Part shown: in pieces, positions 36,171-38,965 of the stretch
Layout: each line of letters opens with the position of its first letter
Numbering within the stretch: the stretch's first letter is position 1
Origin: Mesorhizobium sp. B2-3-12
GTDB taxonomy: Bacteria; Pseudomonadota; Alphaproteobacteria; Rhizobiales; Rhizobiaceae
DNA: 64,000 bases
NCBI RefSeq assembly: GCF_006442205.1
Contig: NZ_VFVR01000002.1
Coordinates: 310,001 to 374,000 of the forward strand
Direction: 5' to 3'
Made by a program: the position numbers and the translations under genes
The notes under the pieces: generated by a model
Database searches by the model: none
What the model was told of the DNA's origin: nothing
What the model saw: only the letters and a program-made list of their open reading frames with translations

Positions 36171-36240
36171 CGACCGAGCGCCCCGGCGACGATCACTTTT
36201 TCGCCGCCACCATCAAATGAGGTAGCGCTTGACGTCCTAG

Positions 36241-36255
36241 GAACATATCATGAAC
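36241..36255. promoter_or_regulatory. LexA (SOS) box, GAAC-N7-GAAC
   Basis: GAACATATCATGAAC exactly fits the alphaproteobacterial LexA consensus (GTTC-N7-GTTC read on the other strand), within an 8-base direct repeat GAACATAT at 36241 and 36252. It ends 3 bases before the ATG at 36258, and a TTGACG hexamer sits upstream at 36229, so LexA would cover the -10 region. Confidence 0.8.
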
Positions 36256-36257
36256 AT

Positions 36258-37493
36258 ATGAGCGTGCTTCCTGTTCGTGAAAAGCTGGCAATCCTCTCCG
36301 ACGCCGCCAAATACGACGCGTCCTGCGCCTCGTCGGGGGCGGCGAAAAAGGATTCGCTGAAATCCGGCGGCATCGGTTCCACCGGAGGCATGGGCATCTG
36401 CCATTCTTATGCGCCGGACGGCCGCTGCATTTCGCTGCTGAAAATCCTGCTGACCAATTTCTGCATCTACGACTGCAGCTATTGCATCAACCGTTCGTCC
36501 TCGAATGTCCGGCGCGCCCGCTTCGGCATCGACGAGGTGGTGAAGCTGACCATGGATTTCTACCGGCGCAATTATATCGAGGGGCTTTTCCTGTCCTCGG
36601 GCGTCATCCGCTCGCCAGACGAGACCATGGGCGAAATGGTCGAGGTGGCGCGGCGGCTGCGGCTGGAGGAAAAATTTTCCGGTTATATCCATCTCAAAAC
36701 CATCCCGGAAAGTTCGGCGGACCTGATCGAGAAGGCCGGGCTCTATGCCGACCGCCTGTCGATCAATGTCGAATTGCCCACCGACGAGGGCGTGAAGAAG
36801 CTGGCACCGGAAAAGAAGCCGGAGACAATCCGGCTTTCGATGGCCAATCTGCGCCGGAAGATGGAGGAGAAAGCCGAGCCGACGCTGCGGTCGAAGAAAC
36901 GCGAACGCTTCGCCCCGGGCGGACAGTCGACGCAGATGATCATCGGCGCGGACAAGACCTCCGACGACGGCATCCTGCACACCAGCGCCCGGCTCTATGG
37001 CAGTTACCATCTGCGCCGCGTCTATTATTCGGCGTTCAGCCCGATCCCCGATTCCTCGTCGTCGCTGCCGTTGCAAAAGCCGCCGCTGATGCGCGAACAC
37101 CGGCTCTACCAGGCCGACTGGCTGATGCGCTTCTACGGATTTTCCCAGCCGGAAATCCTGGCCGGCAGCAGCGACGGCATGCTCGATCTCGCCATCGACC
37201 CGAAGCTTGCCTGGGCGCTGCGCAACCGGGAACGCTTCCCCGTCGACGTCAACCGCGCCGACCGCGAGGCGCTGCTGCGCGTGCCTGGTCTGGGGACCAA
37301 GGTGGTGGCGAAAATCCTGGAAACCCGCCGCCACCGACGCCTGCGGCTCGAGGATGTCGGCCGGCTCTGCCATTCGATCGCCAAGCTCAGGCCGTTCATC
37401 GTCGCCGAAGGCTGGTCGCCAGGCGCGCTGACCGACAGAGCCGGCCTGCGCGACAAGATCGTGCAGTCCTGCGAACAACTGGCGCTGTTTTGA
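36258..37493 (+). CDS. Radical SAM protein linked to uracil-DNA glycosylase (DNA repair)
   Basis: 411 residues. Radical SAM [4Fe-4S] motif C69-x3-C73-x2-C76 (CIYDCSYC), preceded by SGGIGSTGGMGICHSYAPDG. A C-terminal helix-hairpin-helix RVPGLGTKVVAKILETRR should bind DNA. It matches the family described as the putative DNA modification/repair radical SAM protein that sits next to UDG genes. The ribosome site before ATG 36258 is weak, and the SOS box ends 3 bases upstream, so the message may be nearly leaderless; GTG 36264 is an alternative start. It is followed after 2 bases by the UdgX fusion gene. Confidence 0.9.
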   Translation: MSVLPVREKLAILSDAAKYDASCASSGAAKKDSLKSGGIGSTGGMGICHSYAPDGRCISLLKILLTNFCIYDCSYCINRSSSNVRRARFGIDEVVKLTMDFYRRNYIEGLFLSSGVIRSPDETMGEMVEVARRLRLEEKFSGYIHLKTIPESSADLIEKAGLYADRLSINVELPTDEGVKKLAPEKKPETIRLSMANLRRKMEEKAEPTLRSKKRERFAPGGQSTQMIIGADKTSDDGILHTSARLYGSYHLRRVYYSAFSPIPDSSSSLPLQKPPLMREHRLYQADWLMRFYGFSQPEILAGSSDGMLDLAIDPKLAWALRNRERFPVDVNRADREALLRVPGLGTKVVAKILETRRHRRLRLEDVGRLCHSIAKLRPFIVAEGWSPGALTDRAGLRDKIVQSCEQLALF

Positions 37494-37495
37494 CC

Positions 37496-38965
37496 ATGCG
37501 GCCCGCTGAGCTCAACCTCACCCGCTACACGGTCTGGCTTGAAAGCCAGACCGATTTCGCCGGCTGGCGCGACGCGGCTCGGCGGCTGGCGCTCAACGAG
37601 GTCAGGCCCGAGGACATCGGCTGGCATGTGGCGGCCGGTTCCGAGCGGCCGCAAAGCGATTTGCCTGACGTGCCCGAGGGCGCGCAGCTCGTTGTGCCGC
37701 GCGAGTTCATCGGTCATGCCGAAACCGCCTTCTGCCATCGTGACCCCGGCCGTTTCGCCTTTCTCTACCGGATGCTGTGGCGGTTGCGCACGGAGCCCAA
37801 GCTGCTGGCAATCGCATCGGATCCCGACACCAGGCGGCTGGAGACGATGGAAAAGGCGGTGCGGCGCGACAGCCACAAGATGCATGCCTTCGTCCGCTTC
37901 CGGAAGATCGGCGATGGCGAGGATGAACGCTATGTCGCGTGGTTCGAGCCCGACCATTTCATCGTCGAGCGCAACGCGGATTTCTTCGTCCGGCGGTTCA
38001 CCGGCATGCGCTGGACGATCCTGACGCCATACGCTTCGGCCGACTGGGATGGCAAAAGATTGGCGATCGGACCGGGCGCCGCCAAGGCCGACGCGCCCGA
38101 CCAGGACGACACCGAGGCGCTGTGGCGGACCTATTTTGAGAACATCTTCAATCCGGCGCGGCTGAAGGTGAAAGCCATGCAGAAGGAGATGCCGCAGAAA
38201 TATTGGCGGAACCTTCCCGAGGCTTCGCTCATTCCTGACCTGATCGCGGGAGCGGACAAGGCCGCCAAGGATATGATTGCCAGAATGCCGACAACGCCCG
38301 CGCCGCACCACGCCAAGGTGCAGGCAAAGCATTGGCCGAAGCGCCAGCCGGCAGAAGCCTCGGAAGACGATGAGGCCAGCACGATTTCCGAGTTGCGCGA
38401 AGCCGCAAAAGGCTGCCGCCGCTGTCCGCTTTGGCGCGATGCGACGCAGACCGTCTTCGGCGAAGGACCCGACAATGCCAAGGTGATCTTCGTTGGCGAA
38501 CAGCCTGGCGACCAGGAGGATATCGCCGGCAAACCTTTTGTCGGCCCCGCGGGCAAGGTGTTCGATGCGATCCTGGACGATGCCGGGGTCGACCGCCAGA
38601 AAGTCTATGTCACCAACGCGGTCAAGCACTTCAAATTCGAGCCGCGCGGAAAACGACGCATCCATTCCAAGCCGAATGCCGGCGAGGTCCAGGCCTGCCG
38701 CTGGTGGATCGACAGGGAGTTCGAATTGATCAGGCCGGAGCTTGCCGTGGCGCTCGGCGCAACGGCGGCGCTGTCGCTGCTTGGCAAGGCAATCCCCGTG
38801 ACCAAGATGCGCGGGCAAGTGGTGGAGCGCGAGGATGGCTTGCGTGTCTTCATCACCATCCACCCCTCCTTCATCCTGCGCATCCATGAGCCGGCGGACA
38901 AGGAAGCCGAGCGCGCACGGTTTTTGCAGGATATGAAGCAGGTGAAGCGGCTTATGGCGACGTGA
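37496..38965 (+). CDS. udgX: DUF4130-UdgX fusion, uracil-DNA binding/glycosylase protein
   Basis: 489 residues. The first ~250 match the DUF4130 domain paired with the radical SAM protein (FIGHAETAFCHRDPGRFAFLYRMLWR). A linker follows, then a family-4-like uracil-DNA glycosylase domain with the cluster-type CRRCPLW, GEQPGDQEDIAGKPFVGPAG, the R-loop KRRIH at 386-390 and IHPSFILR. KRRIH is diagnostic of UdgX, whose histidine (H390 here) forms a covalent bond with the abasic site after uracil excision. The ATG at 37496 is the first after the upstream stop. Under the same SOS control as its neighbour. Confidence 0.9.
   Translation: MRPAELNLTRYTVWLESQTDFAGWRDAARRLALNEVRPEDIGWHVAAGSERPQSDLPDVPEGAQLVVPREFIGHAETAFCHRDPGRFAFLYRMLWRLRTEPKLLAIASDPDTRRLETMEKAVRRDSHKMHAFVRFRKIGDGEDERYVAWFEPDHFIVERNADFFVRRFTGMRWTILTPYASADWDGKRLAIGPGAAKADAPDQDDTEALWRTYFENIFNPARLKVKAMQKEMPQKYWRNLPEASLIPDLIAGADKAAKDMIARMPTTPAPHHAKVQAKHWPKRQPAEASEDDEASTISELREAAKGCRRCPLWRDATQTVFGEGPDNAKVIFVGEQPGDQEDIAGKPFVGPAGKVFDAILDDAGVDRQKVYVTNAVKHFKFEPRGKRRIHSKPNAGEVQACRWWIDREFELIRPELAVALGATAALSLLGKAIPVTKMRGQVVEREDGLRVFITIHPSFILRIHEPADKEAERARFLQDMKQVKRLMAT

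Follow-up and report, generated by a model that had tools for sequence, protein, structure and literature searches.

A predicted LexA operator at the start codon of a radical SAM and DUF4130-UdgX operon in Mesorhizobium, and its counterparts across Pseudomonadota

Control of a uracil-DNA glycosylase-family gene and its neighbour by the SOS repressor is already in print: SOS control has been predicted for a two-gene COG1573-COG4277 operon in Bacteroidetes, in a study that describes new motifs and a non-canonical LexA in that group, and, with two citations of which the latter concerns Caulobacter, the same source notes an SOS-regulated system based on a uracil-DNA glycosylase in Alphaproteobacteria and Verrucomicrobia (excerpts of PMC8565304). 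SplB-like genes, of the spore photoproduct lyase type, are a further case of a radical SAM protein tied to the SOS response (excerpts of PMC8565304 and PMC3765255). UdgX captures abasic DNA covalently and protection of abasic sites has been put forward as its task, although in the excerpted text its physiological role is still worded by the UdgX authors as a proposal (PMC10359453). DUF4130, which is associated with genes for radical SAM proteins and uracil-DNA glycosylases, has been predicted to be an enzyme related to mutagenesis (excerpt of PMC3765255). A search of the open-licence literature returned no paper joining UdgX with a radical SAM protein.

The operon described here lies in a 64-kb stretch of the genome of Mesorhizobium sp. 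B2-3-12 (positions 310001-374000 of contig C12), hereafter the window. Like the COG1573-COG4277 operon, it pairs a uracil-DNA glycosylase-family gene with a partner, apparently under the SOS repressor (PMC8565304, as excerpted), and it differs in having an alphaproteobacterial box at the start codon and in being backed by counts across Pseudomonadota. Its UdgX domain resembles Mycobacterium smegmatis UdgX (6l6s, 6ail; excerpt of PMC10359453), with the GEQPG, KRRIH and HPS motifs, but has DUF4130 as its fusion partner, and its gene follows one for a radical SAM protein. As SOS control of such a gene pair has been published, at least in the excerpted text of PMC8565304, the novelty is modest: the finding is well supported as a new instance, with phylum-wide counts, of a control already in print. 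The features are as follows.

36222-36227, forward strand: probable -35-like element GTAGCG, from the position of the conserved aT.Gcg, 18 bp before TATCAT
36229-36234, forward strand: TTGACG, probably not a -35 element, 11 bp from TATCAT
36241-36255, forward strand: predicted LexA operator (SOS box) GAAC-N7-GAAC, from sequence and ortholog conservation
36246-36251, forward strand: -10-like hexamer TATCAT inside the operator, from position; ends 6 nt before the ATG
36258-37493, forward strand: radical SAM protein, TIGR03916 (rSAM_link_UDG), 411 aa, from a profile match; structural model ma1a6cd1e7759
37496-38965, forward strand: DUF4130 (TIGR03915) fused to UdgX (TIGR03914), 489 aa, from profile matches

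The operon and its products

The box, GAACATATCATGAAC, is an exact GAAC-N7-GAAC direct repeat on the forward strand, equivalent to GTTC-N7-GTTC on the opposite strand; 2 nt separate its end from the ATG of the radical SAM gene at 36258, and the second reading frame starts 2 nt past the radical SAM stop codon. An earlier note on this DNA had given the sequence and coordinates of the box and the layout of the genes, and a check of the sequence and its reading frames found them as described.

The first protein matches TIGR03916, which we take to be COG4277, with 561.4 bits against a curated cut-off of 343.5. The CX3CX2C motif at residues 69-76 is present in all 43 proteins of an alignment made from a subset of the named proteins plus that of the window, and Cys 23, 48 and 57, which precede it, are invariant in the same 43. 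SplB also carries CX3CX2C; the window protein differs from it in belonging to a separate curated family and in having the three additional cysteines before the SAM motif. The best structural matches of the predicted model were HydE (Z 16.8) and lipoyl synthase (Z 16.6), the latter aligning over 219 residues, from residue 4 onwards, with an rmsd of 3.1. In lipoyl synthase, N-terminal cysteines bind an auxiliary cluster, and by analogy one might guess at an auxiliary iron-sulphur cluster on Cys 23, 48 and 57; the model is poor at residues 26-47. When solved structures were searched by sequence, nothing related to the radical SAM protein turned up at E values up to 0.001; SplB was absent from the best 50 structural matches, an absence that excludes nothing. 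The earlier note had described a radical SAM protein with a helix-hairpin-helix: the first half is borne out by the 561-bit match, whilst the second comes down to a weak C-terminal HHH_3 match of 23.6 bits, below Pfam's threshold of 27.

The second protein was likewise said to be a UdgX fusion with KRRIH, and this was confirmed by the profiles and by the motif itself, the R-loop whose histidine is the nucleophile in UdgX, at residue 386, between GEQPG (motif A) at 334 and HPS (motif B) at 456. Among 45 aligned UdgX-domain proteins GEQPG occurs in 45 and HPS in 42; exact KRRIH occurs in 22, yet its histidine column is nearly invariant. The model of the UdgX domain superposes on M. smegmatis UdgX (6l6s_A) with Z 30.9 and an rmsd of 1.4 over 199 aligned residues at 45% identity. 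A fold search with the fused model gave matches only over residues 280-489, all of them glycosylase-type folds, and DUF4130 alone, searched by sequence against solved structures, gave a single match at E 1.1. A UdgX-type 4Fe-4S cluster is expected to have four ligands; the domain in the window has only three cysteines (307, 310 and 401), and the fourth ligand was not identified.

Of 80 named loci, 72 have a DUF4130-UdgX fusion within 1.3 kb downstream of the radical SAM gene. At two more (L146, L158) it is split over two frames, at four (L118, L161, L170, L171) DUF4130 adjoins the radical SAM gene and the locus showed no UdgX domain, and at L115 and L116 neither domain was detected within 4 kb. 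The loci with DUF4130 and no UdgX suggest that UdgX is a separable part, and the radical SAM protein and DUF4130 may be the core to which UdgX is an addition.

Operators upstream of the operon across Pseudomonadota

By sequence alone the bare motif occurs no more often than chance, with no genome-wide enrichment: the window holds three copies of GAAC-N7-GAAC against 1.89 expected, and the 6.2-Mb genome holds 141 against 153 for the reversed control. The motif count was therefore rejected as proof of LexA control, and the significance of the box rests instead on its position and on its conservation in orthologs. The family to which this genome belongs was represented by 151 genomes, of which 67 encode TIGR03916 above the curated cut-off (one of 68 candidates fell below it and was excluded), and every one of the 67 carries GAAC-N7-GAAC on the sense strand between -250 and +60 of the profile start. 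At the spacings N3-N6 and N8-N12 the repeat is found upstream of one or two of the 67, and the remainder of these loci contains nine copies of the motif in 257 kb of flanking DNA. When 398 genomes were drawn from the whole phylum, 84 exceeded the cut-off; less five already in the family set, these left 50 alphaproteobacterial and 29 other orthologs. All 50 of the former have the box between -130 and +30, 36 of them on the sense strand and 14 in inverted orientation only (about 100 nt upstream in seven of these 14), with other spacings in none or one of the 50 and four copies in 196 kb elsewhere. The 80 named loci were reduced to 71 by removing a Woeseia, six Xanthomonadaceae, a Luteibacter and one locus with too little upstream DNA; on both strands taken together, 67 of the 71 have the box (62 sense, five inverted). 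The exact box was not found at L120, L144, L161 and L177, and the upstream regions of L144 and L161 are one base away from it. As the named set overlaps in part with the other two, the counts are not additive. Comparison across related genomes had been suggested in the earlier note as a check on its proposal, and in each of the three sets (67/67, 50/50 and 67/71) the box was found upstream of the orthologous operons.

The arrangement of box and start codon is variable. The ATG lies 2 nt past the box in 29 of the 67 family loci, that of the window included, and 11-17 nt past it in 14. Around the box and start the 29 share the consensus GAACATAtcaTGAACg.ATG which, when taken from a conserved upstream element, lengthens to tcaaat...aT.Gcg...g........aGAACATAtcaTGAACg.ATG. 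The position of that element makes GTAGCG at 36222-36227 the probable -35-like element. TTGACG at 36229, formerly proposed as the -35, is doubtful in that role and was rejected: its 11-bp distance from TATCAT is unusual, given that, of the 24 times TTGAC occurs close to the box in the 67 loci (window included), 21 stand 14-17 bp from the -10-like element, and the orthologs keep a different -35-like element. Only seven of the 67 loci have a Shine-Dalgarno-like sequence. With 6 nt between the end of TATCAT and the ATG, a leaderless mRNA suggests itself, and a leaderless or near-leaderless transcript with the operator lying over the -10 is plausible.

Within the host genome, a scoring matrix built from the 66 other same-family orthologs was applied to 100 of the 141 copies, amongst which the box in the window ranks first. 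That of lexA itself ranks 26th of the 100; it lies at C1:181139, 72 bp before the lexA profile match at C1:181226. The flanks of lexA's box and of the 13 next-best boxes were inspected, and one frame per site was scanned at lexA's box and at nine of the 13 (all but L297, L298, L299 and L301). Six of the 13 lie near dinB, an ImuA-like gene, parE, a YifB-family gene, ssb and dnaB. At the dinB site the flanking frame matches DNA polymerase IV, and the dnaB box is 208 nt upstream of its gene; the ImuA-like match (49.6 bits) is below its cut-off of 150, ParE was recognised from a partial frame, and the RecD2-like helicase adjoining a further box (L021) is also below cut-off. Several of these neighbours have a known part in the SOS response or in replication, and this supports the view that the LexA box works in this genome. 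No family was found, in the one frame scanned, for the reading frames flanking the second- and fifth-best of the 100 scored boxes (L294 and L296, at 1501-1515 in each); these are possible SOS genes of unknown kind.

Outside the Alphaproteobacteria the operon is preceded by a different motif. CTG-N10-CAG stands upstream of 24 of the 29 orthologs, in 19 of them strictly as CTGT-N8-ACAG, the LexA box of the E. coli type, and CTG-CAG at other spacings is found in none to four of the 29. The longer TACTG-N10-CAG occurs in 21 of the 29 upstream regions and nowhere in 110 kb of flanks, and a named Woeseia metagenome-assembled genome (L155) has, as read by eye, two E. coli-type boxes in tandem. It is difficult to see what other than LexA control would account for this exchange of one LexA-type operator for another. 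Three of the five remaining orthologs carry the palindrome described below, and none of the motifs looked for was found upstream of the other two (L189, L217) or of the named Luteibacter locus (L175).

The palindrome of Xanthomonadaceae

Six named Xanthomonadaceae orthologs (L164, L168, L170, L174, L176, L178) have, in place of a LexA box, the palindrome (G)TCTCA-N5-TGAGA(C), the first G being absent in one of the six, so that LexA control of the operon is not universal. The three phylum-draw orthologs with GTCTCA-N5-TGAGAC come from a family, f46, that we infer from the shared sites to be Xanthomonadaceae. The exact palindrome is present in 26 of 40 f46 genomes at one to three copies each, and two to four times in each of four named-locus genomes, against none for the control in both cases. 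The genes that follow were examined at 56 palindrome loci (L179-L188, L268-L293 and L306-L325), made up of ten from the named-locus genomes, 26 from f46 and 20 more. The radical SAM operon follows at ten of the 56, a TIGR03817-like helicase at 17, recA at two, and uvrA, an RmuC-like gene (below cut-off and from a partial frame), cas3 and csy1 at one each; the other 23 stand before other genes, are unclear or look repeat-like by eye. These counts are not independent, as the genomes may include near-duplicates and the helicases of L325 and L186 are 99% identical.

In the stretch examined the palindrome was not seen at seven lexA loci of five such genomes. Just upstream of these lexA genes, three have TTAGTAGTA(A/T)TACTA and two TGTACAAATGTACA, known-looking boxes to which GTCTCA-N5-TGAGAC bears no likeness, whilst two match no pattern tried. 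Judged by titles and the beginnings of abstracts, a search of the open-licence literature gave no paper on a bacterial operator with the half-sites of the palindrome in Xanthomonas. A tentative extension, which we consider possible though somewhat short of an even chance, is that the radical SAM-DUF4130 and UdgX proteins form a core damage-induced module whose control has been kept across Pseudomonadota whatever the operator, and that the palindrome marks an undescribed, LexA-independent damage-and-defence regulon. If real, the Xanthomonadaceae operator would point to a second damage regulator and offer a route to finding it.

LexA control and its alternatives

The reading that we favour is that the operon is under LexA control, to which we give a probability of about 0.88, and that it is inducible by DNA damage. 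In the undamaged cell LexA bound to GAAC-N7-GAAC would cover the -10-like hexamer and block initiation by RNA polymerase; damage would lead to RecA filaments, self-cleavage of LexA and expression of the operon from a transcript that is probably leaderless or nearly so. By homology, the UdgX part would excise uracil and then hold the abasic site covalently, and the radical SAM-DUF4130 pair probably performs a radical reaction, with a damaged base or the trapped site as its substrate. Since most of the relatives examined keep such a box, it is very probable that DNA damage switches on the radical SAM and DUF4130-UdgX genes, and a role in repair is likely. LexA control, which the earlier note had proposed, is strongly supported by the ortholog counts; its TTGACG promoter is doubtful, and its argument that damage control would be direct evidence of repair does not hold, since SOS control would show when an operon acts and not what it does.

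The least improbable alternative is that the operon is SOS-regulated but serves phage defence or the targeting of foreign DNA, and not to mend the DNA of the cell itself. The palindrome before cas3 and csy1 lends it some colour, but both are single cases, and the same palindrome is commoner before the helicase and the operon itself and also precedes recA and uvrA; a defence role is on balance unlikely. A little less probable again is that LexA binds whilst expression stays low and steady with little real induction. In Caulobacter, features of LexA boxes fail to predict the order of induction, and nine genes listed earlier as SOS genes missed the criteria of that study (PMC12700426, as excerpted); against this, an operator placed across the -10-like element and right against the start codon would be expected to block initiation.

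Recognition of the conserved element, as operator or promoter element, by a regulator other than LexA is improbable. The Xanthomonadaceae operon does carry a different palindrome, but the alphaproteobacterial orthologs have the alphaproteobacterial LexA motif named in the excerpted PMC8565304, most others have the CTGT-N8-ACAG type, and the motif recurs in the host genome close to lexA and to several genes of repair and replication. That the box is a meaningless chance match, as its unremarkable frequency in window and genome would allow, was rejected as scarcely credible in view of spacing-specific conservation in 67/67 and 50/50 orthologs and the LexA-type replacement in 24 of 29 genomes outside the Alphaproteobacteria.

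Consistent LexA control, the favoured reading, would show at what time the module is used and guide the choice of mutants and stresses for experiments, and it suggests covalent trapping of abasic sites as part of the SOS programme. Four Mesorhizobium make up the named relatives whose radical SAM protein is 90-95% identical to that of the window. The module is patchily distributed even within the genus: by profile search, among the genomes listed, three match TIGR03916 and six (G073, G207, G223, G321, G347 and G423) do not.
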